Assembly (NCBI RefSeq): GCF_000380645.1
Contig: NZ_AQXZ01000011.1
Coordinates: 124,001 to 188,000 of the forward strand
Direction of reading: 5' to 3'
Length of the DNA: 64,000 nucleotides
Source: Smaragdicoccus niigatensis DSM 44881 = NBRC 103563
Lineage (GTDB): Bacteria > Actinomycetota > Actinomycetes > Mycobacteriales > Mycobacteriaceae
In this document: positions 12,681 through 31,370 of the stretch, one piece after another
Layout of the letters: the number at the start of each line of letters is the position of its first letter
Numbering within the stretch: position 1 is the first letter of the stretch
Program-made: the position numbers and the translations under genes
The notes under the pieces: model-generated
Told to the model about the DNA's origin: nothing
Seen by the model: the letters and a program-made list of their open reading frames with translations, nothing else
The model's database searches: none

Positions 12681-13745
12681 ATGACTGTGCGCCTCCGCGG
12701 AGATCTGAGCTCATTGCCTAGCTATATCCCGGGCGTCAGCAGGCCAAACGCAATCAAGCTCGCGAGTAACGAATCCACCGCTTCGTCGCATTCGAAAGTG
12801 GTCGACGCGATCACTCAAGCGGCACAGGGCATCAACCGCTACCCGGACAACGGGGCAGCCGCGCTGACCGATGCGCTCGCGGATTTCCTCGGGGTCGACC
12901 CGGCGAACCTCGTGACCGGCTGCGGCAGCGTGGCGTTGTGCCAGGAACTGATCCAGATCACGTGCGAGTCACCCGAAGACGAAGTCGTGTTCGCGTGGCG
13001 ATCCTTCGAGGCCTATCCGATCGTCACTAAGGTCGCCGGCGCGACTGGAGTTCCGGTTCCGCTCCGGCCGGATCACAGTCACGACCTCGGTGCCATGCTC
13101 GCCGCGATCAACGACCGCACGCGATTGATTCTGGTCTGCAACCCGAACAACCCGACCGGCACCGTCGTCACGACGGAGGATCTGACCCACTTCCTCGACG
13201 CCGTTCCGTCGGACATCCTCGTCGTGCTCGACGAGGCCTATGCCGAATACGTTCGCGACCCCGACAGCCCGAACGGGATCGAACTGTTCCGCACGCGACC
13301 GAATGTGCTTGTCCTGCGCACGTTCTCGAAGGCTTACGGCCTCGCCGGAATTCGCGTCGGCTACGGCATCGGCGCACCGGAGATCGTCGATGCACTACGG
13401 AAGGTCCACCTCCCGTTCAGCGTCAACGCCATCGCCCAAGCCGCGGCTCTTGCCGCGCTCGAAGTTCGCGACGAACTTCTCGAGCGCACGAATGACGTTG
13501 TCGCCGAACGCGAACGCGTGAGCGCCGCACTCACCGATATGGGCTACCCGGTGGCGGCGACCCAGGCGAACTTCGTGTACCTGCCGCTCGGCGAAGCATC
13601 CGTCGACTTCGCGCGCCGGAGCGCGGAAGCCGGCGTCATCATCCGGCCCTACGGGACAGACGGCGTGCGGATTACCATCGGCGACCCGCACGAGAACGAC
13701 GCTTTCCTGTCGTTTGCGACAACCGTCAGCCGAGAGTTCGCTTGA
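12681..13745 (+). CDS. hisC2: Histidinol-phosphate/aromatic aminotransferase (HisC2/Pat)
   Basis: A 354-residue fold-type I PLP aminotransferase. Visible motifs are the substrate-side KLASNES (near residue 25), NPNNPTG (near 155), the DEAYAEYV aspartate and the Schiff-base lysine in TFSKAYGLAGIRVGYG (near residue 215), and the terminal arginine motif GVRITIG. The length and order match the aromatic aminotransferase Pat/HisC2 of Actinobacteria, which makes phenylalanine, tyrosine or histidinol phosphate from 2-oxo acids. In M. tuberculosis the equivalent gene (Rv3772) lies upstream of the same arabinogalactan region. Its 3' end overlaps the convergent crotonase gene by 20 bases. Confidence 0.9.
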   Translation: MTVRLRGDLSSLPSYIPGVSRPNAIKLASNESTASSHSKVVDAITQAAQGINRYPDNGAAALTDALADFLGVDPANLVTGCGSVALCQELIQITCESPEDEVVFAWRSFEAYPIVTKVAGATGVPVPLRPDHSHDLGAMLAAINDRTRLILVCNPNNPTGTVVTTEDLTHFLDAVPSDILVVLDEAYAEYVRDPDSPNGIELFRTRPNVLVLRTFSKAYGLAGIRVGYGIGAPEIVDALRKVHLPFSVNAIAQAAALAALEVRDELLERTNDVVAERERVSAALTDMGYPVAATQANFVYLPLGEASVDFARRSAEAGVIIRPYGTDGVRITIGDPHENDAFLSFATTVSREFA

Positions 13746-15857: not shown

Positions 15858-15890
15858 TGATCCGCCGGGCGCCAATGCACCGGCGGATCA
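15858..15890. terminator. Bidirectional hairpin between convergent genes
   Basis: TGATCCGCCGG pairs perfectly with CCGGCGGATCA across an 11-base loop. The right arm includes the TGA stop codon of the minus-strand gene at 15888, and short T-rich tracts flank it. Confidence 0.65.
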
Positions 15891-17894
15891 TTCGTTTGCG
15901 TCCGGCTTGTCCGTCGGCTTGACGATGTCGTTGATCGCCTTGCCCGCCGCCCGTGCGCGGCCGATCAACGACGCGGCGATTCCCGATGCGACATCTGCCG
16001 CCGACGTCACCGCATCCGTGACGTTTCCCGACTGAAGATGCCCGGCCAGAATTTTGAGCGAGTTCGCGTTGTCCTCGACGAGACCCATCGAGATCTCGAC
16101 CGCGCTGCCGGCCACCCCCCGAATCACTTCGGAGGTCACGATCGCCGCGTCATCGAGCGCCGCGGCCACCGCCGGATCGTGTGCGAATGTCGAGAGAACC
16201 TCACGCGCAAACCAGAACCGCTCCGCGAACTCCTCGTTCTCCGCGGCGCGCGCAGCCGCGCTCTGCAGGAGTCTCAGCGGGATACGGAACTCGACGGGAA
16301 CGCCCTCACGGCGAGCGCGGTCGTGTATTCCGCTGACGATCGCGAAGCTGGCGGACCAGGCGTTCGTCAACTCTCCCGCCTTGAGCACCGACGGCAGCAG
16401 GCTCTCGAGCGGGAGGAACGCCGCCTTGTGAGACAGCTTCTCCAGCAACGGAAGTGGCACATCCGCGGCCACCCGCAACAGCTGGTTCCAAACGGCCTGC
16501 TGCTCTTCCGGCTCGAGCGCCGCACCGAGGAGGTCGTCGTCCGAGGCGCTCTCGGTGATGATCGAAATCGCTTTCTCCCGGGCCGCGATCGGCATGCCCG
16601 CCATGATTTCGAACAGTTCCGGAAGTGTGCCCTGCTCGCTGGCCTGAACCAGGGCGGTCCGCATCGCCTTCGGTGAATACTCGGCGACGATCGCGGACAT
16701 GTCCACGATCGTCTCCGGCGGAAGCATCGGCACCACAGCGAGGAGGTCCGGCAAGCGGCCAGCGACGAACGATTCCTCGAAGGCGATCTCGAGCTTCTCC
16801 GCATCAAGTTCAGCCACCGCATCGGCGAAGGTCTGCCGGACGTCCTCCCCCGCGCGACGGAACAGCACGAGCGTCTCCGGGAACGCCTTCTCCACGAGGG
16901 AATCCGACACGATCTTGCCGATGACGCGGTGGTCCTGAAGTCGCGGCGCGGCAGCCAGCGCGGTCAGCGCCCGCTCGGACAGGCGGGGCAGGATCGGCAG
17001 GAGTGCGGCCACCATGTCCTCGCGGATCGCCGCGTCCATGAGCGCCGCGATGACCTCTTGCTTACGGAACGCGCGGGCCTGCGCGAATCGGTGCAGGTTG
17101 CCCGGGTTCACTTCGAGCAGAGCCGGCAGAAGCAGGCCGAGGTGGTTGCTTCGGTAGACCGCCTCGATGAAGCCATCCAGCACCGCATCCGATTGCTGCG
17201 CAACGATATTCGTCATACGGATGCGTGGTTTCGCGCCGATCGCGGCGTACATCTCGACCGCGACGTCGAGCAGATCTGCCTCGCGGGCGGTCTGCAGAAT
17301 TCGGCCCAGCCGCGAATCCGACAGCAGGCTGAATATCGTCTCGAACGGTTTCGTACCCTCGGCGACCTCGAGCACGCGGAGAACCGAACGATCGTCGAAG
17401 TCCGGCAGGACGCCCTTGAGCGCCCCTGGCGTCAGATACTGGAGGATCTGGCCGACGGTGATGTACTCGCCACGCTCGAGCAGGATCGGCATGAAACGCC
17501 GCGTCGTCTCCACGGGCGTTTTCGCGATGAGGTTGGCCGCACGTCGCGCGTCGACGTAGGTGTAGGCCTCGGCGAGGAACGCCGGCGGCAGCTTCGGAAT
17601 GAGCTTGAGAGCCTTTTCCGAGTCAACGACGCCCGACAGCGCCGCGGCCATCCGCGGATCGATGTGCTTCGGTGCGAGTTTGAGGATCACCGGATTCGGC
17701 ACGAACTTCGTCGCCTCGGCAAGCCTGTTGAGTCGATCCTCCGCGGCCTCGAAGAACTGATCCATCACCAGATGGCGGAACTTGCGCAGGTCAGCCCAGC
17801 CGATGGGTTCCAGAAAGCGCAGCGCGTTGACGTCCTCGCCGAGTACCCGTGCGAGCTTGAGCAACTCGGACTGGGTATCGGTCGCCTCGCTCAC
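15888..17894 (-). CDS. Large helical-repeat protein of unknown function
   Basis: A 668-residue protein with no signal peptide, membrane helix or catalytic motif that I recognise. Most of it is made of alternating alpha-helices of similar length with alanine, leucine and glutamate, for example LPELFEIMAGMPIAAREKAI and LLPILPRLSERALTALAAA, suggesting a HEAT- or MgtE-N-like solenoid. The GTG start overlaps the TGA of the small upstream gene (GTGA), so the two are coupled. The C-terminus carries a region predicted to be amphipathic (VTSAADVASGIAASLIGRAR). Function unknown. Confidence 0.75.
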   Translation of the reverse strand: MSEATDTQSELLKLARVLGEDVNALRFLEPIGWADLRKFRHLVMDQFFEAAEDRLNRLAEATKFVPNPVILKLAPKHIDPRMAAALSGVVDSEKALKLIPKLPPAFLAEAYTYVDARRAANLIAKTPVETTRRFMPILLERGEYITVGQILQYLTPGALKGVLPDFDDRSVLRVLEVAEGTKPFETIFSLLSDSRLGRILQTAREADLLDVAVEMYAAIGAKPRIRMTNIVAQQSDAVLDGFIEAVYRSNHLGLLLPALLEVNPGNLHRFAQARAFRKQEVIAALMDAAIREDMVAALLPILPRLSERALTALAAAPRLQDHRVIGKIVSDSLVEKAFPETLVLFRRAGEDVRQTFADAVAELDAEKLEIAFEESFVAGRLPDLLAVVPMLPPETIVDMSAIVAEYSPKAMRTALVQASEQGTLPELFEIMAGMPIAAREKAISIITESASDDDLLGAALEPEEQQAVWNQLLRVAADVPLPLLEKLSHKAAFLPLESLLPSVLKAGELTNAWSASFAIVSGIHDRARREGVPVEFRIPLRLLQSAAARAAENEEFAERFWFAREVLSTFAHDPAVAAALDDAAIVTSEVIRGVAGSAVEISMGLVEDNANSLKILAGHLQSGNVTDAVTSAADVASGIAASLIGRARAAGKAINDIVKPTDKPDANE

Positions 17895-18667: not shown

Positions 18668-19258
18668 CTATCTGACGCCCTCGAAGAACACCCGGTCTTC
18701 ATCACCGAAACCGAGATCGATCAGGACGCTGCCCCCGACCGTGCTGTCGATCGGGACGGACCAGCAGACGTTTCCCTCGACCGTCGAATTCGGGAATTGT
18801 TCGCCCTTGTCGGTGAGGCTGTCCGGGATGACCCCGCAGTAGTCCTCCATCGAATTACCGAACGTCACGCGATTCGAACCGAGATAGCTGTCGCTCAGGT
18901 CGACCCAGGCCTCGCCGGATTTCTTTCCGAGGTATTCCGCCCGAATCCGGGCCATGACAAACTGCCGGCCCGCCGCGGGCGGATCGTTGAACTCGTTCTC
19001 CGCTTTGATGACGTCCCAGGCATCGGGATCGATCGACACCACGGTCACGTTCCACTCGTCGCCCACGGCATGCGCCGTCCCGATCGGAACCGGATGGTCG
19101 CGCGTTCCCAGGGCGGCATCGGCGGAACGGGTGGTCACCGAGATCGACGGCTTCTGTAGCCCGGACTTCGGAGCCACACCGCTTCCCGTGATCGTGTTGG
19201 CGCCACACCCCGCCAGCACCAGCAATCCCGCCGCCAAGAGAACCGCGCGGAGCTTCAT
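18668..19258 (-). CDS. DUF4352-type lipoprotein
   Basis: A 196-residue lipoprotein precursor with the lipobox LAGC (residues about 16-19, after MKLRAVLLAAGLLVLAGC). The mature domain resembles the immunoglobulin-like DUF4352 fold: HPVPIGTAHAVGDEWNVTV, then a strand with AAGRQFVMARIRAEYLGKKS. Such lipoproteins are anchored on the outer face of the membrane and their function is mostly unknown. It starts ten bases after the diiron fusion gene on the same strand, so it may be cotranscribed. It ends one base from the thioesterase stop. Confidence 0.8.
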   Translation of the reverse strand: MKLRAVLLAAGLLVLAGCGANTITGSGVAPKSGLQKPSISVTTRSADAALGTRDHPVPIGTAHAVGDEWNVTVVSIDPDAWDVIKAENEFNDPPAAGRQFVMARIRAEYLGKKSGEAWVDLSDSYLGSNRVTFGNSMEDYCGVIPDSLTDKGEQFPNSTVEGNVCWSVPIDSTVGGSVLIDLGFGDEDRVFFEGVR

Positions 19259-19268: not shown

Positions 19269-21566
19269 TCAGACGTCGAAGTCGAGCTCCACTTCCGAAC
19301 TCGCACACTTGGATTGGCACGTCAGGATGATTCCGTCGGAGACCTCGTCGTCGGTCAGCGAGTGGTTCTCGACCATCGGAGTGGTCTCGCCGGAGACCTT
19401 CTTCGCCCGGCACATTCCGCACACTGCCTCGCGGCACGACCACGGGATGTCCTGGCCCGTGCGAAGCGCGGCGTCGAGAAGCAGTTCGTTCTCTTCGACC
19501 GCGATCGTCTCCTCGGACCCTTCGAAGCTGAACTTCAGCGTGGCAGTGCCAACGCCGACCACTTCGGCCGCCGCAGCCGCCGCCGGTGCCGGCTTGACGC
19601 CGATCGTGTTGAACAGCTCGATGTGAACCTTTTGCTTCTCCACGCCGAGGTCGGCGAGCGCCGCCTGAATACCCTCGGTCATGGGGCCGGGGCCACACAT
19701 GAACCAGTTGCCGACGTCACCCTTGGTCGCCAGATCCGACAGTTTCTCGGCGTCGATTCGACCGACGGCGAATCCTGGTCCGGAATCGCCGCCCTGCTCG
19801 AGGACGTGAATGACCTTCAGACGGTCGGGATACCGGAACTGGTAGTCCGTGATCTCGCCGAAGAACATGATCGACTCTGGGTCGCGGTTGGCATAGACCA
19901 GCGTGAACCTGCTGTTCGGCTCCTCTTCGAGAACACTCGTCATGATCGAGAGGATCGGGGTGATACCGCTACCGCCGGCGATTCCGCAGTAGTGGATGAA
20001 GTTGTCCGCCGACAGCTCCGTGAAGAAGCGTCCGGCAGGTGGCACGACGTCGACCGCGTCGCCAACCTGGAGTTCGTCGACGACGTAGCTCGAGAACACA
20101 CCTCCCGGCACTTTCTTGACGCCGATCCGCAGCTCCTGCTTGCCTACCGACGAGCAGATCGAGTAGTTGCGACGAACCTTTTCATCGTTGAGGAGCGCCT
20201 CGATGGTGACGTGCTGACCCTGCTTGTAGCGATACAGCTCAGCAACTTCCTCGGGAACCCCGAAGGTGACCGCGACGGAGTCCTCGGTAAGTGGTTCGAT
20301 GTCGATGACCGCCAACCGGTGCACACTCTTGGAGGTCTGTGGCTTCTTGCGGGGGCGCTTTGCCGGGGCGAGCGGGTCGCCCAAGAGTCCCCAGGGCAGG
20401 AATCCGGTGGCCTTGCGGATGGCCTGCACGGGCGTGAAGTCCGCGATCGCCCGGATCGGGTTTCCGAAGCCCATGTGGTGGGTGTCGAAGTCGGCCGGCT
20501 TGGGCTGCTTGCCGGGTCCCTTACCGATGCCGGCGAGAGTGCCGCTGACGAGCCGGTTCAGGCCCGGAATCTGGGTCAACACGGACTGCGCGGCATGCAT
20601 CGCGGCCGACGTGCCCAGGTCCACACCCTTGCCGAGAATGCCGCGTTCGACGTCAGCGTCCGTAATCAGGTGACACGCGCGCCACAGGCCGGCCGCCGGG
20701 CCGCCGATGAGATCGTTCTCCGCGAGGAACTCGACGACGCCCTTGCCCCAGTCCGCGCGAGCCTGGTGCATGTGCGGGTTATTGCGCACCTGACGAAGGG
20801 CTTCCTTCTGGTCGAGTCCGACCGCCGGGTAAACACCGGGGCTGATGAGCGACTCGACGATCGCGAAACCGACGACAGCGCAAATGGTCTGCTGGGCGAG
20901 CTTGTCCGCCGGGTCTAAACCGGCACGCACCATGTCCGCGATCTCTTCGCGAGCGAAACGCATGTGCCGCGCTTCTTCGGTGACGTGGATTTGATTGACG
21001 CGGCGAACGAGCGGCTCGACGCTTTCGTCGATCATTCCCTCGCGCTGCGCTTCATCGAGAATTTCTTCAGCCACCAGAATTCCGGCGTAGGCCATTGGTC
21101 CCCAGGCAATGGTCTTGAAGATCCGGCCCAGTTCGTTGAACATCTTCGAATGCCGGTGCGGCGGCATGCCGGTCTTCTCGAGGGCCTTGCCGAACATGAT
21201 CGAGTGGTGGCACTCGTCGGCGATCTCGGTGAGTGCCCAGTGGACGTGCGCGGTCCGCGGGTCCATGTCGTAGATCGTTCGCAGAATCATCTGCATGAGG
21301 ATCATCTCGAACCAGATGCCGGAACTGGCGATACTGCCGGCCTCGTGGCGAGTGAGCAGAATTCGCTGCTCCTGAGACATCGACTCCCACATCTCGGTGC
21401 CGTAGAGCGTGGACCGGTGCAGAGGGAGGAACGGCTTGTCGGTACTGATCGGCTGGTCCCAGTCGATGTCCGTCCACGGGTCGTAGGACTGCTTCAACGA
21501 CGACTTGATCAGTCGCGACGAGATCTTCTCGGAAGCTTCGAACCGTTCGTCCATAACGCCAGTCAC
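19269..21566 (-). CDS. AurF-like diiron oxygenase fused to ferredoxin-NAD(P) reductase and [2Fe-2S] ferredoxin
   Basis: A 765-residue three-part enzyme. The N-terminal ~310 residues resemble the AurF p-aminobenzoate N-oxygenase family, with ligand-type motifs in GIWFEMIL, EIADECHH, VAEEILDE and HVTEEARHMRF. A ~100-residue linker follows, then an FNR-type reductase with FAD motif RRNYS and NAD(P)-binding GGSGITPI. The C-terminus is a plant-type ferredoxin with CREAVCGMC and a final CQSKC. Together this is a self-sufficient oxygenase with its own electron chain. The GTG at 21566 follows GGGAG by five bases; an ATG at 21554 is an alternative. A CRP/GlxR-type site lies about 45 bases upstream. 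The substrate is unknown. Confidence 0.88.
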   Translation of the reverse strand: MTGVMDERFEASEKISSRLIKSSLKQSYDPWTDIDWDQPISTDKPFLPLHRSTLYGTEMWESMSQEQRILLTRHEAGSIASSGIWFEMILMQMILRTIYDMDPRTAHVHWALTEIADECHHSIMFGKALEKTGMPPHRHSKMFNELGRIFKTIAWGPMAYAGILVAEEILDEAQREGMIDESVEPLVRRVNQIHVTEEARHMRFAREEIADMVRAGLDPADKLAQQTICAVVGFAIVESLISPGVYPAVGLDQKEALRQVRNNPHMHQARADWGKGVVEFLAENDLIGGPAAGLWRACHLITDADVERGILGKGVDLGTSAAMHAAQSVLTQIPGLNRLVSGTLAGIGKGPGKQPKPADFDTHHMGFGNPIRAIADFTPVQAIRKATGFLPWGLLGDPLAPAKRPRKKPQTSKSVHRLAVIDIEPLTEDSVAVTFGVPEEVAELYRYKQGQHVTIEALLNDEKVRRNYSICSSVGKQELRIGVKKVPGGVFSSYVVDELQVGDAVDVVPPAGRFFTELSADNFIHYCGIAGGSGITPILSIMTSVLEEEPNSRFTLVYANRDPESIMFFGEITDYQFRYPDRLKVIHVLEQGGDSGPGFAVGRIDAEKLSDLATKGDVGNWFMCGPGPMTEGIQAALADLGVEKQKVHIELFNTIGVKPAPAAAAAAEVVGVGTATLKFSFEGSEETIAVEENELLLDAALRTGQDIPWSCREAVCGMCRAKKVSGETTPMVENHSLTDDEVSDGIILTCQSKCASSEVELDFDV

Positions 21567-21605
21567 GGGTTCTCCCAACACGTTTCAGTGCGACGCAGCA
21601 CGGCC

Positions 21606-21618
21606 TAGATGTGATCTA
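21606..21618. repeat. TAGAT-GTG-ATCTA palindrome before the diiron fusion gene
   Basis: A 13-base perfect palindrome that partly overlaps the CRP/GlxR-type site at 21610-21625. It may be a second operator or part of the same regulatory region. Confidence 0.4.
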
Positions 21619-21625
21619 ACTCACT
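21610..21625 (-). promoter_or_regulatory. Candidate CRP/GlxR-type operator (TGTGA-N6-TCACT)
   Basis: The top strand reads TGTGATCTAACTCACT, which differs at one base from the corynebacterial GlxR consensus TGTGANNTANNTCACA. It lies 44-59 bases before the start of the diiron fusion gene, a position suited to cAMP-dependent regulation. Confidence 0.55.
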
Positions 21626-21750: not shown

Positions 21751-22215
21751 TTAGCGACGCTCTAGAACCGCGACCGGAATTTCGCGAGTTGACCGCTCCT
21801 GGTACGTGGCGAAGGACGGATAGGTCGCATTGACGAGGCGCCAGCACTCGGCACGCTCGGGGCCTTCGACGACGCGGAACGTCACCGGCCAGGTCTCGCC
21901 CGCCACTTTGACGGTCGCTTCACCGGCCGCGCGCAGATTGCGGAACCAGTTGGGCTCCGCCTCGTTTCCGGCGTTCGATCCGGCGACCACGATGTCGTCG
22001 CCGCGCTTGGTGAGGATCAACATGACGGTCCGGAGTTCGCCCGTCTTTCGACCACGGACGGTCATCTCGAACACCGGCGCGCCGAAGTACCGGTCGAAGA
22101 GCCTGCCGACTGGAGTTCCGTGCACCTTGACGTGCAGCCTCGCGAAGGCCCGTGCCACGGGGTCGAGACGAGTCGAGGCGAAGTTGTTGAACACACCTTG
22201 CAGGTCGAACTTCAT
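21751..22215 (-). CDS. Nitroreductase/deazaflavin-dependent oxidoreductase family protein
   Basis: A 154-residue Ddn-like protein. It carries the family segment VFEMTVRGRKTGELRTVMLI and IVVAGSNAGNEAEPNWFRNL, which match the F420-binding split barrel. Proteins of this family reduce F420-dependent substrates, and in mycobacteria one activates nitroimidazoles, but the natural substrate here is unknown. The ATG at 22215 overlaps the TGA of the upstream DUF429 gene, so the pair is coupled. Confidence 0.83.
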   Translation of the reverse strand: MKFDLQGVFNNFASTRLDPVARAFARLHVKVHGTPVGRLFDRYFGAPVFEMTVRGRKTGELRTVMLILTKRGDDIVVAGSNAGNEAEPNWFRNLRAAGEATVKVAGETWPVTFRVVEGPERAECWRLVNATYPSFATYQERSTREIPVAVLERR

Positions 22216-22964
22216 GGTTGGAAGGTACCGGTCAGGAGTGCGTCGAGAGTGCCAGTCGGAACGTGAATCCACCCTTCCCGAGCGGCAAGACGCTCATTGT
22301 CGGCCGTCGGCATCGCGGTTCGGCCCAGCGCGACGGCCCGGGCGATGAGTGCGGACACGACTGCGTCAAAGGCGTCGTCATTCGAAGCGAAGAGGGGCCG
22401 GAACTCGCCGAGCGCCAACCATGGGGCGGCACCCTCGATCGCAGAGACAAGTGCGTCGAATCCGACGGAGCCACTCCCTTTGTAGCCCTTCGATGCCATG
22501 TGCCACGTTCGCAGGGCAGCCGCGGGATAGACCTCGCAGACCGCGCCGCGGACCCGGTCGACGTCGACGCCTATTGCACGGAACTCAGCCAACAGTCCGG
22601 CACAGCGCAGGGCCACATGCGCGATGCGGTCGGCCGAGACACTGAGCGGAACGGCACCCGTGGTGGCCTGGACAACGACGTCCGTGTGCCGCTTCGTCAT
22701 CGGTCGGCGGTCGTCACGCGTGGCCAGTTTGGTGGCCGGCGCCTGGTGATCATGGTGAGCGGCCACGAATTTCACGAAGGCGTCAGGCCAACCAAACGGC
22801 GCGTCGATCCCGACACGTTCGGCCCCGGACGCCATTCGAAGAATCTGTTCGTCGCCGGCGCCGATCGTCAGCGACATGACCGTCGCCCCGCCCGCCGCCC
22901 AATCGAGAACGGCGACCGCGGTCTTCGCAGGTTCAGCGGCCAGGTCGACGCCAACGGTTCGCAC
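22212..22964 (-). CDS. DUF429 (RNase H-like fold) protein
   Basis: A 250-residue protein of the DUF429 family, which has a predicted RNase H-like nuclease fold. The N-terminus reads GVDLAAEPAKTAVAVL, typical of the first strand with an acidic catalytic position, and later segments include GIDAPFGWPDAF, RRPMTKRHTDVVV and a C-terminal NDDAFDAVVSALIARAV. The activity has not been established. The GTG at 22964 follows TAGCGT by six bases. Confidence 0.8.
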   Translation of the reverse strand: MRTVGVDLAAEPAKTAVAVLDWAAGGATVMSLTIGAGDEQILRMASGAERVGIDAPFGWPDAFVKFVAAHHDHQAPATKLATRDDRRPMTKRHTDVVVQATTGAVPLSVSADRIAHVALRCAGLLAEFRAIGVDVDRVRGAVCEVYPAAALRTWHMASKGYKGSGSVGFDALVSAIEGAAPWLALGEFRPLFASNDDAFDAVVSALIARAVALGRTAMPTADNERLAAREGWIHVPTGTLDALLTGTFQP

Positions 22965-22970
22965 ACTCGG

Positions 22971-22976
22971 ACGCTA
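22971..22976 (-). promoter_or_regulatory. Putative -10 box TAGCGT of a leaderless DUF429 transcript
   Basis: TAGCGT plus six bases leads directly to GTG 22964 on the minus strand. Confidence 0.42.
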
Positions 22977-22988
22977 TCGGATGGCACG

Positions 22989-24278
22989 TCACCAGGTGAA
23001 CGGGCGAACCCCCGCCAACTTCTTCGCGGCGAGCGCGGTCAACAGTGCCGCGGCCATGACGGCGAGACTTCGGCCGATCGCCGCGAAGAGCAGGCCGCCG
23101 GTCCAAGCACCGACCAGCGCACCCAGCCCCACGGCGATGGCACCGATAAGAGTGCACAGGACCGCGATGTGTTCCCGGTCCTGGTACACCAGCACCGTGC
23201 CACCTTGCCCGAAGGCGAGAACCGCGACCTGGCCGAGCGCCATGATCACGAGTTCCGGCCAGCCGACGGTGAATTCAGGACCGAAGGCGGACAGCACGAG
23301 AACCGGGGTCAGGATGAACGGTGCGGCGACGAGAGTCCCGACGAGCAGAACCCGCCGGCCCGCGGTGCGAACGAGAGCACCCATTTCCTCCCGCTGACCG
23401 TCGCTCGCGGACGCGACCTTGGGTGCCAAAACGGTGTTGATCGCGACCGACGCGATGGCGACCGCCAACGCCAACTTCGAGACCGCGGCATAGATGCCAG
23501 CCTCGTGGGGAGGGAGCACCGCCACCACGACGAGCAGGTCGATCTGGGTGGCGATGAGCCCGAGCGCGGAGAAGAGCAGCCACATCGGTGCCCGACGTGC
23601 CCAGGCACCGGTTGGGACACGCGGGACAACCGCCGCGACCCCGATCGCGCTGCTCAGCGAAACAAGCTGTACGACAACGACTATCAACGCAGCAGCGACC
23701 GAAAGGGCCAGTGCTCGCGGAACGTCCGCAACCCAGCCGGCAAGGCCCGCGACGGTCACCGCGGCAATCAGCACGGCCGGTCGCAACGTGATCGAGGCGC
23801 CATAGGTCGAGATGTTCCGACCCGCTGCGCGCCCGACGTCGCTGCCGAAGTTCACGACCGCGATCGCGATGACGAGCAGCGCGAGAAGAACCGCCGTGGG
23901 GATCGACGTCCGATAGATGACGAGCGTCGCGCAACCGGTGATCGTCCCAACGACCGCTCCCCCGACGATGCAGCCGAACAACGCGGCACCCGAATACCGG
24001 CGCGCGGCCGCGAGGTCGTCATCTCGCAGAGCGACCGGGACGAAACGCGAAGCAGCGCCGGTGAGCCCGAACGTGGCGATGAGGCCACTGATCGTCGCAA
24101 TGGCGAATAACGCACTGAACGTTCCGAATTGGGCAACACCGAGCCAGCGGGCGAGAACGATCTGACTCCCGTAGGCCGCAACCGCTCCGGTGAATTGCAC
24201 GATGATCGCGGGCCCGAAGGTGAACCGGCCGACCTTGAGGTCGAGGTGGCCAGCAGTCACTGTGGCACCACCATTCAT
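22989..24278 (-). CDS. Polysaccharide flippase (MATE/MVF-type, Wzx-like)
   Basis: A 429-residue integral membrane protein with about 12-14 helices and no soluble domain. The N-terminus (AAYGSQIVLARWLGVAQFGT FSALFAIAT) has the charged/aromatic pattern of polysaccharide_synt-type flippases, which move lipid-linked glycan units across the membrane. It is the left edge of the glycan locus, next to a GT2 and a Wzy-like gene. The start at ATG 24278 is the best of several; the region upstream is not obviously coding. Substrate unknown. Confidence 0.85.
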   Translation of the reverse strand: MNGGATVTAGHLDLKVGRFTFGPAIIVQFTGAVAAYGSQIVLARWLGVAQFGTFSALFAIATISGLIATFGLTGAASRFVPVALRDDDLAAARRYSGAALFGCIVGGAVVGTITGCATLVIYRTSIPTAVLLALLVIAIAVVNFGSDVGRAAGRNISTYGASITLRPAVLIAAVTVAGLAGWVADVPRALALSVAAALIVVVVQLVSLSSAIGVAAVVPRVPTGAWARRAPMWLLFSALGLIATQIDLLVVVAVLPPHEAGIYAAVSKLALAVAIASVAINTVLAPKVASASDGQREEMGALVRTAGRRVLLVGTLVAAPFILTPVLVLSAFGPEFTVGWPELVIMALGQVAVLAFGQGGTVLVYQDREHIAVLCTLIGAIAVGLGALVGAWTGGLLFAAIGRSLAVMAAALLTALAAKKLAGVRPFTW

Positions 24279-24385
24279 CAGCGAGAGGATCGGGTCGCAG
24301 TTTACAAGGCGGCGTTCCTTCGGGAGGTTTTCGAAGACGCGGCGATAATCAACTTCTGAACTGAATTGACGACGAAGGGACGCGG

Positions 24386-25288
24386 GTGACCGTCGCGATC
24401 GGACTCGTCGTTGCGTCGATCCGCCCCGACGAAGCGGCCGCGCAATTCGAGTCAGTGCTCGCCCAAATGCCACTCCCGGCATATGTCAGCATCGCGTTCC
24501 AGGGGTCCGACCAAGACTTCAGGCAGTTGCGGGACGCCGTCCGGATCACCGCTGACAACGCGGGATTCACCGACTACTCAGTGGTTCACGATCGAGGCCA
24601 GGGCGCGAGCCGCGCACGCAACATCGCACTCGCGAACGTTCCCGAAACCGTCACCTGGGTGTGGACCCCGAACGACACCACACGACCCACTGAACAGTTT
24701 CTGCAGAACCTTTCGCACAGTCTCACAACGGCGACCGAGGACGTCGGCGTTGTCGGGCTGAACTATCGCGTTGGCGACCGATTCCGCCGGCACGTCTCCA
24801 CGAACAAAGAGCTCACTGGGTGGCAGGTATGGCACGTCATCGAGCCCGCGACCGTGTGGCGGCGGGACCACCTGGTCCGCGCCGGAGGCTTCGACGAGCG
24901 CATCGGACCGGGGAGCGACGGCTGGACGCAGGCGGGCGAGGGCACCGATGCGATCTACCGCGTCACCGCTCGAGGCCTGACCGTGTCGTCCGCACCGCTT
25001 GCCGTGATGGGACGCGAGCAGCACCTCGATCCACGCTCGAAGTTCCAGCGGCGCAAGGAGTTCTACTACGCCGTCGGCGTCGGCTGCGTGATCCGACGGC
25101 ACTACCTGACGCTGCGCGGCCTCCTCGCGATCGTGACTCCGCTCGTCAACTGGGCTATCGGACGCTCGACGCCCGGCGAATCTCGCACACTCAGCCTCGC
25201 ACTCGCCGCGTCATCGGGCCGGTTCCTCGGCATCGTTCTGGGCGACCGCGCCTGCCGCATCGACCGACGCACGGAACACTGGCACTGA
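24386..25288 (+). CDS. Glycosyltransferase family 2 protein
   Basis: A 300-residue glycosyltransferase. The GT-A fold begins at the N-terminus (AIGLVVASIRPDEAAAQFES), with an RGQGASRARNIALANV donor-site segment, the nucleotide/metal-type TWVWTPNDTTRP, and an acceptor loop RAGGFDERIGPGSDGWTQAG. Metal-binding here is NDT rather than a classical DxD, so I am less sure about catalysis. The GTG at 24386 follows an AAGGGA site. It points right, while most of the locus points left, and its 3' end overlaps the Wzy-like gene by 78 bases. Confidence 0.82.
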   Translation: MTVAIGLVVASIRPDEAAAQFESVLAQMPLPAYVSIAFQGSDQDFRQLRDAVRITADNAGFTDYSVVHDRGQGASRARNIALANVPETVTWVWTPNDTTRPTEQFLQNLSHSLTTATEDVGVVGLNYRVGDRFRRHVSTNKELTGWQVWHVIEPATVWRRDHLVRAGGFDERIGPGSDGWTQAGEGTDAIYRVTARGLTVSSAPLAVMGREQHLDPRSKFQRRKEFYYAVGVGCVIRRHYLTLRGLLAIVTPLVNWAIGRSTPGESRTLSLALAASSGRFLGIVLGDRACRIDRRTEHWH

Positions 25289-26479
25289 CGACAACGCCGC
25301 GAACGTGAAGAAGAAGATGTCGAGCGGGAACACCCGATGCGGCGGCAGGTTGATCATGGCGAGCAGGAACGCGATCTGGAACGTCATGGCGGCGACGTAC
25401 ACCGAGCGAACGGTCCCATCCGAGGCGAGCACATGCCGGCGCAAGCGGACGACCGAGCCGATCCCCACGATGAGAAAAAGCACGAAACCGACCGCACCGA
25501 GATGTGCGATCAAGCTGACGTATCCCGACTCCGGCGGCTCGATGCCGGTGTTCGTGCCATGCAACAACGCACGCCAGCCGAGTCCGAACAGCACGTCGAG
25601 TGACTCGCCGTGGTACTCGATGCTGCCCTGCTTCTGCTGGAGAAGTCGCTGGAATTGGTGCGTCGGCACGATGAGCGCGGCGGCGGCGAGACCACAGGCA
25701 ATCAGTCCGCCACCGACTGCGAGTACCGTGCGGCGATGGCTACTCCAATAGGCCGCAACCGCGACGATCGACACCGCCACACACGTTGCCACGGCCCCGG
25801 TAAACGACTGCGTCAGTAGCAAACTCACGAACACCGACACCGTCAGGCCGATGCGAGCCCACGGGCGGCGAGGCCAGACCCATGCCACGACGATCAGCAG
25901 AGCGCAAAGGATCGCGTACCCATTCGGGTCGTCGAGCAGCGATCCGAACCGGACCGACAGGCTGTGGGCGTAACCCAGCGCCGGCAGACGCCCGGTCGTG
26001 AAAAAGAGCAGAACCTGGATCGCGTCAACGATCACCGCGACGATCGCGAACACGCCGAAAATGGGCAGCAAAGCCGAGACGTCGCTTCGATAGAACTCAC
26101 GCAGCGTGACGATCGTGGCCGCTACGAATACAGCGAACGCGAAGGTCAGCACATCGTCGCGGGACACCAGCCAGGCGAATACCGCCCACGCGGAGAGCAC
26201 CGGGAACCAGACCACTCCGCCGGACCAGTCGCGCGGCAAGCGCCGTTGGTGGCGCCAAATGTCAAGCAGCGCAAGGCAGGCGAGCCCGCACACGGCGAGA
26301 AGTACGACGTATTTTCCGTACTGGAGCACGACCGGTGTATCCGAATACGTCGAACTCGTTCTCTTCGAATTGATCCGGAACGGATAGCGATAGGCCAGGT
26401 AGTACAGGCCCACGAGCGTGATGCCCGTGATCAGCCACGTCGCGAATCTGGAGTCGCGGAGCAGGGTCGTCACCGGCAC
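25211..26479 (-). CDS. O-antigen polymerase/ligase-like membrane protein (Wzy/WaaL family)
   Basis: A 422-residue protein with about 11 membrane helices and one larger extracellular loop near the middle-to-C-terminal part (the stretch with QKQGSIEYHGESLDVLFGLG). That loop position and RFGSLLDDPNGYAI before it fit the O-antigen ligase/polymerase family, which joins or attaches glycan units outside the membrane. With the adjacent flippase it forms a Wzx/Wzy-like pair. Its 3' end overlaps the convergent GT2 gene by 78 bases, and it starts right after the neighbouring glycosyltransferase. Confidence 0.82.
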   Translation of the reverse strand: MPVTTLLRDSRFATWLITGITLVGLYYLAYRYPFRINSKRTSSTYSDTPVVLQYGKYVVLLAVCGLACLALLDIWRHQRRLPRDWSGGVVWFPVLSAWAVFAWLVSRDDVLTFAFAVFVAATIVTLREFYRSDVSALLPIFGVFAIVAVIVDAIQVLLFFTTGRLPALGYAHSLSVRFGSLLDDPNGYAILCALLIVVAWVWPRRPWARIGLTVSVFVSLLLTQSFTGAVATCVAVSIVAVAAYWSSHRRTVLAVGGGLIACGLAAAALIVPTHQFQRLLQQKQGSIEYHGESLDVLFGLGWRALLHGTNTGIEPPESGYVSLIAHLGAVGFVLFLIVGIGSVVRLRRHVLASDGTVRSVYVAAMTFQIAFLLAMINLPPHRVFPLDIFFFTFAALSSVPVFRASVDAAGAVAQNDAEEPAR

Positions 26480-27457
26480 CTAGGAAGCCTCCAACCGTTC
26501 CCGAATCACGGCCTCGACTTTGCGCGCAATCGTGGGCCAATCGAAATCATCGAGACGTGCCGGGGCGACGAAAGGATCATCGAGCGCGGCGGACATCGCC
26601 GCGGAGAATGCACCGGGATCTCTGCTGTCCTCGACCGCGAACTGACTTCCCGAACAAATGTCCGCGACCGACGTTGCTTGCACGCAATAGACGACCTTGG
26701 TGTTGGACCGCATCGCTTCGAGAACCGGCAATCCGAACCCTTCCCAACGCGAGGGGAACAGCAACGCCGAAGCGCCCCGGTAGAGCTCCGCCAGGTGTTC
26801 GTCGTCGACATCGGACAGGATTCGGGTTCGGTCGGCGATGTCGTGTCGATCCGCCAGTTCCGCGGCGTGTTCACGATCTGCGGTGACAACCACGAACAGA
26901 TGGTCGCCGAAGTCGCGCATCGCGGCGAACGCGAGCTCGGGATTCTTGTGCTCTTTCAGATTGCCGACGTACAAGAAAAAATCGCGGCCAATGTCCGCAG
27001 CCGGACCGTGTGGTGTGAAGGCATCCGAACATCCGGCGCCGCAATTGATGATCGCGATCCGATCGTCGTCGAGCCACTCGCGCAGCCATTCGACGCTGTT
27101 CCTCGAGACAGTGAGCACCGCACCCGTTCGACGAATGACGGGCGCGACCAGGCGGTCGTAGTAGAGCCGATTCGCCCGTCGCCGACGCGGATCCTCGACC
27201 TCGAGGTGGGTCAGATCGTGCACCGTCAGCAACTGGCGGCACCGCGACGGGCCCGTGCTGTACCCCGGCGAGTAGAGCAATGCGTTGCGCGGCAACCGCA
27301 TTCGTGAAACGTTCAGGCCGTCCCGAGCCGATCCCGGTCGCACGCCGGACACGAACGATCGACCCTCGAGATTCAAGCGCGGCAGCACCTCACGCGAGTA
27401 CCGTCCGATACCGAAATTGCCGACATATCGGCGATCGACGATCAGCGGGACCGTCAC
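26480..27457 (-). CDS. Glycosyltransferase family 4-type (GT-B) enzyme
   Basis: A 325-residue GT-B glycosyltransferase. The C-terminal Rossmann domain carries YVGNLKEHKNPELAFAAMRD and the donor-binding ALLFPSRWEGFGLPVLEAMR, with the EX7E-type glutamates. The N-terminus is short (VPLIVDRRYVGNFGIGRYSR). The GTG start at 27457 is one base after the stop of the upstream glycosyltransferase gene, which fixes the start and shows operon coupling. The sugar and acceptor are unknown. Confidence 0.87.
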   Translation of the reverse strand: MTVPLIVDRRYVGNFGIGRYSREVLPRLNLEGRSFVSGVRPGSARDGLNVSRMRLPRNALLYSPGYSTGPSRCRQLLTVHDLTHLEVEDPRRRRANRLYYDRLVAPVIRRTGAVLTVSRNSVEWLREWLDDDRIAIINCGAGCSDAFTPHGPAADIGRDFFLYVGNLKEHKNPELAFAAMRDFGDHLFVVVTADREHAAELADRHDIADRTRILSDVDDEHLAELYRGASALLFPSRWEGFGLPVLEAMRSNTKVVYCVQATSVADICSGSQFAVEDSRDPGAFSAAMSAALDDPFVAPARLDDFDWPTIARKVEAVIRERLEAS

Positions 27458-27458
27458 C

Positions 27459-28541
27459 TCAGTGCGACCCGGTCCACTCGAGGATCTGGTTCTGGAACGT
27501 CGACACCGAGAACATGTCCAGCCGGGAACGGGCAGCAGCCATATCGCATGCCATCGCCAACTCGGCCGCCTCGACGAGCCCGCCGGCACCCGCCTTCGGA
27601 TCGAATTCCACGCCACCGCCGAGCGCGAGAACACTCTCCCGAGCGCCCCCCTGCGCGTTGATGAGGACGGGTGTGCCCGCCGCGATCGACTCGACGGGCA
27701 TGATTCCGAAATCCTCGATGCCCAGGAAAACGAACAACGACGCAGCTTGGTACAGCGCATAGAGCATCTCGTCGGAGACGCGTCCGGTGAAGTAGACCGG
27801 CACCTTCGCGTAGGTGGCGCGAGTTCGAAGATCGGACATAGCCGGACCGCCACCGGCGATCACCACCGGAAGACCAAGAGCGTCGCCAAGCTCGATCGCG
27901 CGATCGACGCGCTTGTACTTGACGAGCCGGGAGGCCCCGAGAATGAAGCCGTCGGTCGGCAGGGAGTGGAAGACCGCATCCTCGGCCGGATCGAGCTCGT
28001 GGTGCCAATTCTTCACCGAGGCAATGCGTTCCACATTGACCGGTGGGTAGATGACAGTTGCTTCGACACCCCAGCAACGTTCGATTCGGCGCTGGATGTA
28101 CTGACTGTTTGCTGCGTAGCTGACACGCGGTTCGACCCCACGACGATCGAGCACACGCAGGGGTCCAGCCCCGATGCGAGCAAGCGGCCGTCGGCCGCGC
28201 GGATCGACGTCCGGCGCCCAGATGTAGCGCGCCGGCGTGTGCACATAACTGAATGCGCGTCGTCCGGATCGCGCCGCGCGGGCCGCGAGGTGATGCGCGA
28301 ACGCATGCGACAGCGCGACCACGGTGTCGTAGCCATGGAGCGGTACCTGCTTCCACGCCACCGGCATCGCGGGTAGCGCCAAGTTCTTGCGGCCCCGCAG
28401 CCACGACTGCGCCAGACGCGTCTCGGTGACCGGGGCTCGGCGGTCTCCGTCCGTTTCATCCCACAGGCACACCGCGTCGGCCGCGGGCAGGCACGCGCGG
28501 ATATTGCTGAAGACCTTGTCGGCGCCGCCGGTGTCGGACAT
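27459..28541 (-). CDS. Glycosyltransferase family 4 enzyme with uncertain N-terminus
   Basis: A GT-B enzyme of at least 360 residues. The donor site is clear (GASRLVKYKRVDRAIELGDA, then FVFLGIEDFGIMPVESIAAG). The ATG at 28541 begins MSDTGGADKVF, but in-frame codons upstream give TLIAEEW, the expected first beta-strand of GT4 enzymes. The open frame runs back to about 28605 without any ATG, GTG or TTG; GAGGAG at 28611-28617 precedes an ATC/CTG pair. The true start is therefore probably upstream and non-canonical, or an initiator codon has been changed. It is in the same run as the genes at 26480 and 28712. Confidence 0.8.
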   Translation of the reverse strand: MSDTGGADKVFSNIRACLPAADAVCLWDETDGDRRAPVTETRLAQSWLRGRKNLALPAMPVAWKQVPLHGYDTVVALSHAFAHHLAARAARSGRRAFSYVHTPARYIWAPDVDPRGRRPLARIGAGPLRVLDRRGVEPRVSYAANSQYIQRRIERCWGVEATVIYPPVNVERIASVKNWHHELDPAEDAVFHSLPTDGFILGASRLVKYKRVDRAIELGDALGLPVVIAGGGPAMSDLRTRATYAKVPVYFTGRVSDEMLYALYQAASLFVFLGIEDFGIMPVESIAAGTPVLINAQGGARESVLALGGGVEFDPKAGAGGLVEAAELAMACDMAAARSRLDMFSVSTFQNQILEWTGSH

Positions 28542-28711
28542 CCACTCTTCAGCGATCAGCGTTGCGGCACCGCGGGTTTGGGTAGGAGGCAGGGCGGGGA
28601 CCAGGATCGGAGCTCCTCAGCTGGTTGCGTCCAGGTTGCTGGAGAACCGCGCGTCCATGGACGATTCCTCAGAAACCATAACGAATGTCCGAGTTCGAGT
28701 CATTCACTGGA

Positions 28712-29551
28712 TTATCGAAACTGCCGATTGTTCACCGAATCGGGAAGAGCGATCCCCAGCTGAGCCGCCCTGGCGAGGTACGACTCGATTCGCTCCTGGC
28801 AGTATTCGACGGTCGTCCAGTTCGCGAGACGCGCCTTCATCTCGTGCTTCTGATTCTGGGGTCGGCCCAGGACTTTGCTGGTCGCACGCGTCGTCTCGAT
28901 CCGAAGGTTCTCGAACATCCGGCTGACCGACGGCCACGAGTTCAACTCGGCGAGAGTCACCTCGTGCAGCCGGGCGTGCGGATGTTCGATCCGGAATCGT
29001 TCCGTTCGGGCCTCGATGTCGACCAGGTACGCAATGCAGATGTCGAATTGATCGAGGTCCGCATCGGGAGCGATGCAACGGATTGCTGACGTCGCTGCGT
29101 TTGGACTACTCATCCAGTCGGGCCACGCCTCGCTCGACCCGAAATACGAGAGTTCGACAAAGCTCTTGAGCACTTCGGCGAGCGGTCGTCGAAGGACGAT
29201 CACGTCGACCTCGTCGAGTTCAGCCATCACGACATCGCTGAAGGTCTTGAGGAACATGTGCGACGTTTCAGCGTAGACATGCGGGAACGTCCACGGCGCG
29301 AGCCTTTTTCGCCACCGTGCCCGACCAGTTGGCGAATCGAAGTAGGCGCGCAGCGTATCGGCCTTGAATCGGCGCAGCTCGTACGTGTCGGTGTACGCGC
29401 GATCATTGATCATTTTCAGGTAGTCACCGGTCATGCGCGGCTCGGCCTCATGGAACGCTCGCACCCGACGACCGGTGTTCAGCAACCGCGCGAGGTACTG
29501 CGAACCGGCTCGCCCCGAGTTGATGCTGAAGATGAACCGTTGGTCAGACAC
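28712..29551 (-). CDS. Sulfotransferase-like protein
   Basis: A 279-residue protein with a sulfotransferase-type P-loop near the N-terminus (FIFSINSGRAGSQYLARLL), the 5'-phosphosulfate-binding loop, and a 3'-phosphate-binding-like segment IVLRRPLAEVLKSFVELSY. These would bind PAPS and transfer sulfate to a hydroxyl of a glycan or lipid. The catalytic histidine cannot be identified with confidence. The GTG start at 29551 lies eight bases inside the preceding gene's end, giving an overlap. Location in the glycan locus suggests a sulfated saccharide. Confidence 0.65.
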   Translation of the reverse strand: MSDQRFIFSINSGRAGSQYLARLLNTGRRVRAFHEAEPRMTGDYLKMINDRAYTDTYELRRFKADTLRAYFDSPTGRARWRKRLAPWTFPHVYAETSHMFLKTFSDVVMAELDEVDVIVLRRPLAEVLKSFVELSYFGSSEAWPDWMSSPNAATSAIRCIAPDADLDQFDICIAYLVDIEARTERFRIEHPHARLHEVTLAELNSWPSVSRMFENLRIETTRATSKVLGRPQNQKHEMKARLANWTTVEYCQERIESYLARAAQLGIALPDSVNNRQFR

Positions 29552-30260
29552 GGCGCAGCCTCGACCACAGGTCCCGACGCGGCGGGAAGTACTGCCACAA
29601 CGCCGAGCGGCCATAACCGTCCGGCAGCGCGATGCCGTATCGCAGTCCGTCGATCACGCCATTCGCCGTGATGTCCGGCCCGATCGTCGGCTCGCCGAAT
29701 CGGACCAGACTCCTCGTCGTCGAGAACGCTCGGTGCACATGATCGCCGGCTAACAGCGCGCGATGAGGTTCGAAAATCGGGTAGTCGTCGGCATCGACGT
29801 CGACGAAGATCTCGCGCAGGATGCCGGCCCGAATGAACTGGTGGTGCCAGAATCCGCGGGCGAGGATGGCCCGATGCTCGTGGATGCGTTTCCTTCGGCC
29901 CAGCGTCCGAGGCGTGTGGTTGACCAGCCGGAGCGAATCGAATTCCGTTGCGCCGTCGACAATCTGGACGAAGCTGCGGAGTTCAGCCAGGTCGTGCACC
30001 TCGGCGAGGTAGCGGTCGTCGGTGCACCAATAAACGAACTCGTCGTCCGCGATTCTCGCGAGCAATGCGGACATCGTGTGCTTGATCTGCGGCCGAGTCT
30101 CGATGTATTCGACCGGGTGACCCGAGCGAAGCAGCGGCCGTTCGGTGTTGAACGGAATGCGAAAGACGAGCCCGCTGTCGGGCCAGTGCTCGTCGTACGA
30201 CGAGAGAACCAACTGGGCGAACGGCAGTCGGGCCTGGTGAGTCAGAACGATGGCGTACAT
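29544..30260 (-). CDS. Putative glycosyltransferase-like protein of the glycan locus
   Basis: A 238-residue protein with a GT-A-like start (MYAIVLTHQARLPFAQLVLS) and an acidic patch EFVYWCTDDRYLAEVHDL that could be the metal-binding DxD-like motif. No strong family match is apparent to me. It overlaps the next gene upstream by 19 bases and the downstream sulfotransferase-like gene by eight, so it is part of one translationally linked run. Substrate unknown. Confidence 0.55.
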   Translation of the reverse strand: MYAIVLTHQARLPFAQLVLSSYDEHWPDSGLVFRIPFNTERPLLRSGHPVEYIETRPQIKHTMSALLARIADDEFVYWCTDDRYLAEVHDLAELRSFVQIVDGATEFDSLRLVNHTPRTLGRRKRIHEHRAILARGFWHHQFIRAGILREIFVDVDADDYPIFEPHRALLAGDHVHRAFSTTRSLVRFGEPTIGPDITANGVIDGLRYGIALPDGYGRSALWQYFPPRRDLWSRLRRV

Positions 30261-31333
30261 GTCACCCGATTCCGCAACACGTCATCGACCTTCTGCGCGG
30301 CAACCGGCGTGCTCAACCGATCGATGAAGTCGGACCGCCCGTTCTCGACAAGCGACTGACGCAGGTCGCGATCGTCGAGCAACTGCCCGACAGCATCGAC
30401 GAAGCCTTCGACGCTGTTCGGGGTCATCCCATTGACCCCGTGCCGGAAGAATTGCGCATGGTCGAGAACGTCGTGGGTCACGACCGCGACATCACTCGCC
30501 AGGTACGACAGTGCCTTCCCGAACGACTTTCCGTGGCTGTACGGGTTCGCGAGGCATACCGGGTGCAGTCCGACCGCCACATGCTGCAAGGACCGGAGAT
30601 ACGAACGGTAGGACCGCCGGAAGTCCAGCACGCGAACCGTCACTCCCGCTTTGCGCAGCGGCTCCACATACGAGTCCCACTCCCCTGCGAATCGACTTCC
30701 GTAGAGCCAGAATTCGAACGATCGTCGCTGGGCGACCCCGAGCACGACGTCGTGCACGAACTGTGCCTCGATCGGATACCGCCACGGTGCCGCGTGCGCC
30801 CACGCCACGACGTCCCGGCGCTCACGGTTCGCCGTCCGCACCGGCCGATTCGGCACCGGGTGACTAACCCACACGACCTCGACATTCGCGTTGTGCTGCC
30901 GCGCCCAATCGGCCGTGACCCGATTTCCGGCCAGAACCGCCACACTCTCCCGACAGCAATCGACCGTCTGCTGCGCCTCATCGGGCAGAAGGTAATCGGC
31001 GTCGTCGAGCACGAACACGGTCGGCACGTCCGGATACAGGCTGGGGCGGTTGAGCGGGTGGCGACCCTTGATCATCAGAATCGCGTGCGGTTTCTCCGCC
31101 GCGATGACGCGGCGCCGCTGGACCAGGTCGAGTTCGGGCGGAATGACGATCACTCGCCATCCGATTCGCCGGAGTTCGATGGCGAGTTCGCGTCCCCACA
31201 GCAGATTCGAACCCGTCGCCGGACCGTTCGGCAGGATCACCAGACGCTTGTCTGACGACGGGCCCAGCCGGCGAAGATGAACTCCACCTTCGATGACCCG
31301 CCGCGCGGCGAACTTGAGTAGCTGCGCGTTCAC
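30242..31333 (-). CDS. Glycosyltransferase-like protein (GT-B type)
   Basis: A 363-residue protein with two Rossmann-like halves. The N-terminal part has VILPNGPATGSNLLWGRELA, and the C-terminal part has the donor-site type SYLRSLQHVAVGLHPVCLAN followed by YSHGKSFGKALSYLASDVAV. It lacks the strongest GT4 signature, so family assignment is tentative. The GTG at 31333 follows GGGAG by nine bases; an upstream start would overlap the divergent ABC gene. It is the first gene of the leftward run ending at 25211. Confidence 0.65.
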   Translation of the reverse strand: MNAQLLKFAARRVIEGGVHLRRLGPSSDKRLVILPNGPATGSNLLWGRELAIELRRIGWRVIVIPPELDLVQRRRVIAAEKPHAILMIKGRHPLNRPSLYPDVPTVFVLDDADYLLPDEAQQTVDCCRESVAVLAGNRVTADWARQHNANVEVVWVSHPVPNRPVRTANRERRDVVAWAHAAPWRYPIEAQFVHDVVLGVAQRRSFEFWLYGSRFAGEWDSYVEPLRKAGVTVRVLDFRRSYRSYLRSLQHVAVGLHPVCLANPYSHGKSFGKALSYLASDVAVVTHDVLDHAQFFRHGVNGMTPNSVEGFVDAVGQLLDDRDLRQSLVENGRSDFIDRLSTPVAAQKVDDVLRNRVTCTPSF

Positions 31334-31370
31334 CGGTCCTGGCTCCCAGTGTCGAGTGTCAGTTGTCTGA

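Follow-up and report, generated by a model that had tools for sequence, protein, structure and literature searches.

A single-chain AurF-type diiron oxygenase with a fused PaaE-like reductase and ferredoxin in a few actinobacteria

In the protein described here, an AurF-type diiron oxygenase domain, an FNR-type reductase, and a [2Fe-2S] ferredoxin are joined in a single chain. We consider it probable that this protein of Smaragdicoccus niigatensis is a self-contained soluble diiron oxygenase with an internal electron chain, most likely oxidizing nitrogen, and that it arose once by fusion. Its gene lies in the window, that is, the whole stretch of 64,000 nucleotides analyzed (64 kb, contig NZ_AQXZ01000011.1). 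The open frame spans 19269–21581 on the minus strand and encodes 770 amino acids when counted from the first GTG (21581). We prefer GTG 21566, the start given in the original prediction, because GGGAG ends five bases ahead of it and because the proteins of Antrihabitans and Skermania have MTG aligned with the first residues from it. Residue numbers are counted from GTG 21581; subtracting 5 gives the numbering of the likely protein. The features of the gene are as follows.

19269–21566, minus strand: fusion gene (AurF, linker, FNR, ferredoxin), likely start GTG 21566, 765 aa
21572–21576, minus strand: likely ribosome-binding site GGGAG preceding GTG 21566, by sequence
20718–21536, minus strand: AurF-type ferritin-like diiron oxygenase domain, residues 16–288 (Pfam, alignment, fold)
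20499–20663, minus strand: C-terminal extension, approximately residues 307–361, common to the fusion and the stand-alone paralog of the same genus
20313–20402, minus strand: conserved linker end, residues 394–423, FLPWGL.GDPLAP..RPR..P..SKSVHRL
20025–20312, minus strand: FAD-binding domain, residues 424–519 (PF00970, fold)
19665–19982, minus strand: NAD(P)-binding domain, residues 534–639, with GGSGITP and CGPGPM (PF00175, conserved columns, fold)
19308–19523, minus strand: [2Fe-2S] plant-type ferredoxin domain, residues 687–758 (PF00111)

The three parts that the original prediction had read in one chain were all recovered by a Pfam profile search, in the order AurF (PF11583, residues 16–288, E 6.8e-91, 304.8 bits against a cut-off of 29.6), FAD_binding_6 (424–519), NAD_binding_1 (534–639), and Fer2 (687–758), each above its cut-off. 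The same continuous frame occurs in five further genomes at 67–98% identity. Comparison with the congener gave a dN/dS of 0.041 overall, which indicates purifying selection, with values of 0.021 for the AurF domain, 0.016 for the tail and linker, 0.06 for the FNR part, and 0.09 for the ferredoxin. The continuous frames in five more genomes and the low dN/dS rule out chance or an assembly artefact. With the same continuous frame in six genomes and such constraint against the congener, a non-functional, fortuitous read-through of two genes is scarcely credible. We judge the fusion to be real, rare, and likely functional.

Full-length fusions were found in S. niigatensis itself, Nocardiaceae MAG bin.485, Antrihabitans stalactiti, A. 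stalagmiti, Antrihabitans sp. YC2-6, and Skermania sp. ID1734; the occurrence in other genera that the original prediction had suggested looking for thus extends to Antrihabitans and Skermania. Both genomes of the genus (2/2) carry the full fusion, as do 6 of 151 and 6 of 201 genomes sampled at the family level, in 3 of 31 genera. Among the 394 genomes sampled from the class and the 396 from the phylum, it was found in the own genome only (E 1e-120 or better). PF11583 itself matched in 55 of 296 phylum genomes. We took 80 of 525 relatives from a search seeded by AurF peptides, which divergent fusions could escape; 75 of the 80 were stand-alone AurF proteins, 40–51% identical. No other AurF–reductase fusion was seen. 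Besides the own one, PF11583 frames longer than 600 aa were read in G005, G784 (contig 3), and G572 and carry no reductase, while the one in G219 was compared by BLAST only; two more frames of this length class lie in G784 (630 aa) and in G613 (1331 aa, matched in part). None of the 38 loci L095–L132, most with about 1.5 kb on each side, contained a PaaE-like reductase, and none of 965 matching plasmid records covered 80% of the query. Searches of open-access texts turned up no account of an AurF-type fusion.

The oxygenase half belongs to the AurF family by three kinds of evidence. We picked 35 PF11583 rows from the AurF proteins collected, and the proposed ligands E92, E123, H126, E172, H199, E203, and H206 are invariant in all of them, E92 being assigned from invariance only; E119, D176, and E202 are likewise invariant. 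Missing diiron ligands had been named beforehand as grounds for abandoning the assignment, and the alignment instead offers these seven candidates. In PDB searches, the N-terminal half found no relative as a single sequence and gave weak matches only with a small profile. With the 35-protein profile, E172, H199, E203, and H206 align with positions 196, 223, 227, and 230 of AurF (3chh), a weak alignment (E 0.12), and E123xxH126 with the E..H of a VlmB homolog (E 0.0019). We take these 3chh chain positions to correspond to the named ligands of AurF, including H223 as its third His. On that alignment (E 0.12), H199 lies opposite the third His of N-oxygenases and is invariant in the 35 rows.

The AlphaFold model of the whole protein (mean pLDDT 66.8) is good over the AurF half and weak in the remainder. 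Its closest folds are CmlI (5hyh, Z 21.3, r.m.s.d. 3.4 for 264 aligned residues) and AurF (2jcd, Z 20.3); the first other protein follows at Z 18.1, and R2-like oxidases are among the next folds. Since profile, fold, and ligand pattern agree, membership in the AurF family is sound. The protein thus shares with AurF and CmlI the fold, the Pfam family, and a candidate ligand pattern with the third His, but differs from them by its fused reductase and by an identity of just 14–15% in the fold alignment. We know of no fused reductase in AurF or CmlI themselves. The spacings E172–H199 (27), H199–E203–H206, and E123–H126 equal those reported for DnfA, whereas the E92–E123 spacing is 31 here and 35 in DnfA (PMC9478400).

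In the C-terminal half, all 23 reductase rows keep the cluster cysteines C716, C721, C724, and C755. Among NCBIfam profiles, PaaE (TIGR02160, residues 421–769, E 1.2e-99) matches best, and because the score of 333.5 bits stays below the curated cut-off of 420.8, we describe this half as PaaE-like rather than filing it as PaaE. It resembles PaaE, the phenylacetyl-CoA epoxidase reductase, in the order of reductase and 2Fe-2S domain; PaaE, by contrast, is a subunit of its own within a multicomponent diiron enzyme. When residues 334–770 were modeled separately, the mean pLDDT was 76.2, with values mostly above 85 across the FNR part and a large portion of the ferredoxin and low confidence in the linker. 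The fold of this model is matched best by the self-sufficient P450 6kbh (Z 28.8), with 320 residues aligned across both reductase and ferredoxin; the FAD/NAD domain of a flavohaemoprotein (4eh1) ties at Z 28.6 on the FNR part alone, followed by phthalate dioxygenase reductase (Z 26.9, 312 aligned), and another CYP116B-type structure, 6laa, is matched at Z 26.8.

In a tree of 29 reductase rows, the fused reductases form one clade (support 99/97). Nearest to it stands a stand-alone reductase of the sister genome (L153), 44–46% identical, on a long branch whose place is unsure; next out are 12 reductases fused to FA_desaturase-like proteins (80/68), and then PaaE. These FA_desaturase-like proteins with fused FNR and 2Fe-2S domains occur in several genera (L019:15175–17193, L139–L141, L143–L148, L150, and L152), the call resting on Pfam for one row (L019) and on His motifs for eleven. 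Six stand-alone reductase loci were inspected. Five (L154–L158) resemble paa operons by eye, and the plasmid relatives carry the annotation paaE; the sixth (L153) adjoins a flavin monooxygenase gene and, by eye, one for a ferritin-like protein. This ferritin-like protein (L153:7360–8289, 309 aa) has a similar-looking counterpart, likewise read by eye, in L018:181–1104 (307 aa); neither has a Pfam match, and each lies beside a flavin monooxygenase-like gene, the L018 one about 9 kb from the fusion. Taken together, the comparisons indicate that the fused reductase is PaaE-like and that its kin appear to serve other diiron enzymes or oxygenases.

The history of the joint can be read from the stand-alone relatives. 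A tree of 87 AurF domains groups the six fusions in a single clade (98/96), the sister of which is a stand-alone paralog of this genus (92/82, below the strong mark of the tree program). This pre-fusion sister is 75% identical to the fusion, and the identity is 78% over 80 aligned residues that include the C-terminal extension. Most of the 75 other stand-alone relatives stop near residue 306, whereas the paralog and the fusion continue to about residue 361; the joint therefore lies just after residue 361. Beyond it, the stretch of approximately residues 362–383 varies in length and sequence between genera, and the linker-end pattern of residues 394–423 is kept in all six fusions; both stretches have low confidence in the structure models. 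We rejected the idea that the paralog is a decayed fusion: one copy aligned past the stop, yet no downstream reductase remnant exists in either genome. No reductase gene directly follows the paralog, and Antrihabitans and Skermania have no such paralog at the cut-off used. The Skermania fusion nests among the Antrihabitans rows (98/85), and transfer between genera is therefore possible.

The premise of the original prediction, that AurF enzymes work with separate electron donors, fits the relatives examined. In 40 of 74 stand-alone loci (drawn from the 80 of 525 relatives, L036 left out), a ferredoxin-reductase gene follows directly on the same strand with a gap of -57 to 135 bases; three more have one within four genes, and the other 31, Rhodococcus loci included, have none. 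The neighboring enzyme is an FdxA-like ferredoxin joined to a pyridine-nucleotide reductase, a type different from the fused one and absent from all fusion loci. This type goes by the name FprB. The apparent two-gene redox operon of AurF-like and FdxA-ferredoxin/reductase genes was seen in L029, L034, L038–L040, L044, and L045 as well as 33 further loci; Streptomyces and Saccharopolyspora are among the genera that have it. Tandem AurF-like genes occur in Saccharopolyspora endophytica (L038), with matches of similar span in L039 and L042. In the own genome, two more distant AurF paralogs flank a ferredoxin-reductase gene (L130:6573–8111), followed by a flavin monooxygenase gene, the cluster spanning L130:5376–10605. 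From gene order, we infer that a separate electron supply came earlier and was swapped here for another type of reductase.

A palindrome lies upstream of the gene, with the following position.

21611–21624, no strand assigned: CRP/GlxR-like palindrome GTGANNTANNTCAC, 45–58 bases before the start

GTGANNTANNTCAC has a single match in the 64-kb window and none in 100 shuffles. Its core, GTGANNNNNNTCAC, is perfect before five of the six fusion genes (one mismatch in Skermania) and before both stand-alone paralogs, counts in which congeners are not independent. Before the other stand-alone relatives, the core is perfect in 0 and present with one mismatch in 6 of the 74 loci (of 75) that had enough upstream sequence, L009 counted once and the starts being uncertain. 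Random 150-base pieces of the window contain GTGANNNNNNTCAC in 0.54% of cases. The core matches that of the GlxR consensus as given in PMC4254451. Against TGTGANNTANNTCACA, the 14-base core is perfect; the window copy starts with AGTGA and so departs from the 16-base consensus at one outer position. A stricter spaced pattern of the palindrome gave no match. Genome-wide, GTGANNTANNTCAC has five perfect sites against two for the reversed pattern: two before the two AurF paralogs, one near a sensor-kinase-like gene (by eye), and two near other genes. We rejected a small dedicated regulon on these counts, as the three non-AurF sites could be chance. The genome also encodes a cNMP-binding protein whose sequence looks CRP-like by eye (L168). 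The palindrome core, its match to the core of the GlxR consensus, and the CRP-like protein therefore make CRP/GlxR control of the fusion gene plausible.

The neighborhood gives little guidance on substrate. The 24 window proteins profiled, the fusion included, contain no PABA or nitro-group synthesis enzymes, as had been noted originally. Immediately downstream lies one further feature.

18668–19258, minus strand: putative lipoprotein gene (by eye), likely ATG 11 bases past the fusion stop

This gene has no Pfam or NCBIfam match, neighbors the fusion also in the congener (L015), and is perhaps co-transcribed with it in this genus. Just upstream, and in the same direction, 21751–22272 encodes a member of the deazaflavin-dependent "nitroreductase"/quinone reductase family, which adjoins the fusion in the congener too and has no match among the called genes of the four fusion loci of other genera. 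No neighbor is common to all fusion loci, and none shared between genera points to an amine substrate or pathway. Fusion and reductase kin aside, the called genes of this genus matched those of the Antrihabitans and Skermania loci as follows. An aminotransferase of L016 (16867–17970) is 60% identical to one of the window (12681–13745); the two lie 4.5 and 5.5 kb from the fusion in differing relative orientation. An enoyl-CoA hydratase family match (29%) adjoins the fusion in L017, with a further 28% match in L018. A pirin-family gene directly precedes the fusion in A. stalactiti (L016:8990–9943) and Skermania (L019:9116–9976), co-directional in one and divergent in the other, and has no match in the remaining fusion loci. 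The FMN reductase and flavin oxidoreductase genes beside the L016 pirin gene were not found in the window, L015, or L017–L019. Elsewhere in the window, a segment of about 14.5 kb (22228–36715) encodes glycosyltransferases, a polysaccharide-synthesis membrane protein, and an ABC transporter; the congener MAG (L015) lacks it at the corresponding place, and a tRNA-Ser(tga) gene (37638–37723) lies close to it. Positions 15888–17894 encode a 668-aa protein without a Pfam or NCBIfam match.

By analogy with the AurF/CmlI and FNR families, NAD(P)H would pass a hydride to the FAD of the FNR part, and electrons would move singly through the C-terminal [2Fe-2S] domain, mobile on flexible linkers, to the diiron site in the AurF domain of its own chain or of a dimer partner. 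The reduced diiron site might then bind O2 to give a peroxo-diferric species and oxidize a small substrate, most likely at nitrogen, from an amine to a hydroxylamine, nitroso, or nitro product. N-oxygenation by the fusion protein is plausible on the same analogy. As in a fused monooxygenase, an oxygenase, a flavin reductase, and an iron-sulfur donor lie in one chain; with its redox helpers so attached, the enzyme therefore probably needs nothing beyond NAD(P)H and oxygen. Profiles, alignments, folds, and evolution bear out the parts, the candidate ligands, and the idea of an internal electron chain in the original reading as a self-contained monooxygenase, whereas "self-sufficient" is read from the anatomy of the protein. 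As to origin, an AurF-like enzyme with a longer C-terminus would have been joined a single time to a PaaE-like reductase, either in an ancestor that these genera share or with transfer among them afterwards.

The same electron chain might instead drive oxidation at carbon, hydroxylating, epoxidizing, or desaturating an acyl or aromatic substrate. Such chemistry would suit the nearest reductases, which go with phenylacetyl-CoA epoxidase operons and FA_desaturase fusions, and the R2-like oxidases that come next after AurF and CmlI among the folds; against it stand the invariant third His of N-oxygenases and the placing of the AurF and CmlI rows (Z 19.2–21.3) above all R2 rows (≤18.1), and we hold a reaction at carbon to be unlikely, with an appreciable chance nonetheless. 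The aryl amines named in the original prediction are no more than candidate substrates at 14–15% identity to CmlI and AurF, and AurF relatives also include the hydroxylamine oxidase DnfA (PMC9478400) and the hydrazone oxidase Dob3 (PMC13061610). DnfA, a diiron enzyme of PF11583, has its FNR/2Fe-2S partner encoded by a gene of its own, DnfB (PMC9478400, PMC11160463), and is reported to be active in vitro without DnfB when given FAD and NADH (PMC9478400). Like DnfA and DnfB of Dirammox in Alcaligenes, the present protein combines an AurF-like diiron enzyme with an FNR/2Fe-2S reductase, although there two proteins do what one chain does here. A hydroxylamine- or ammonia-level N-oxidase for detoxification or redox balance would then equal DnfA plus DnfB in one chain. 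No DnfC-like glutamine amidotransferase was seen among the profiled neighbors, which include a DJ-1/PfpI gene 9.5 kb from the fusion, and similarity to characterized members is low, so that a DnfA-like role seems to us distinctly unlikely. We take the DJ-1/PfpI gene to be the only profiled neighbor of the wider glutamine amidotransferase fold.

It is also conceivable that the covalent link is incidental and that the reductase half chiefly supplies other oxygenases in trans, such as the stand-alone AurF paralog. The paralog of this genus, which lacks a reductase directly downstream and shares the palindrome with the fusion gene, could be such a client, but Antrihabitans and Skermania have the fusion without such a paralog at the cut-off used, and the linker-end motif is kept in all six fusions, which makes a role in trans improbable. 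A self-contained oxygenase that most likely acts on nitrogen remains our preferred reading.

Joining an oxygenase to its own redox chain has precedents outside the AurF family. Self-sufficient P450s are well known, and CYP116B is a heme P450 with an FMN-type reductase. The present protein resembles CYP116B in carrying oxygenase, reductase, and 2Fe-2S domain in one chain, and the best structural match of its C-terminal half is to such an enzyme, yet the oxygenase there is unrelated. For AlkB, a three-domain form that carries ferredoxin reductase and ferredoxin in the same chain has been expressed, and its activity is reported (PMC8918992). It likewise unites a diiron hydroxylase, FNR, and ferredoxin; AlkB, however, is an integral membrane protein with N-terminal redox parts, whereas the redox parts here are C-terminal to a ferritin-like oxygenase. 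AlkB fusions of the same plan are thus already known, and the AurF-type version is new here. Also new are the fusion clade and its stand-alone sister with a shared linker start, the kin beside a different ferredoxin-reductase, the PaaE-like nature of the reductase, and the palindrome.

As we read the literature, little is settled about what reduces AurF-type oxygenases in the cell, and assays make do with stand-in reductants: PMS, ascorbate, or spinach proteins were tried for Dob3 (PMC13061610), and FAD plus NADH served for DnfA (PMC9478400). A natural fusion would name the donor, fix the stoichiometry, and offer a one-protein tool. The pre-fusion paralog in the same genome, together with the gene pairs of stand-alone kin with the other reductase type, makes the evolution of redox-partner choice testable. 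We tentatively put forward, as a possibility somewhat short of an even chance, that this is the first natural one-chain N-oxygenase, in which a separate ferredoxin-reductase was exchanged for an attached PaaE-like donor, needing only NAD(P)H and O2 and serving a cAMP-controlled, carbon-source-dependent pathway in a few actinobacteria.
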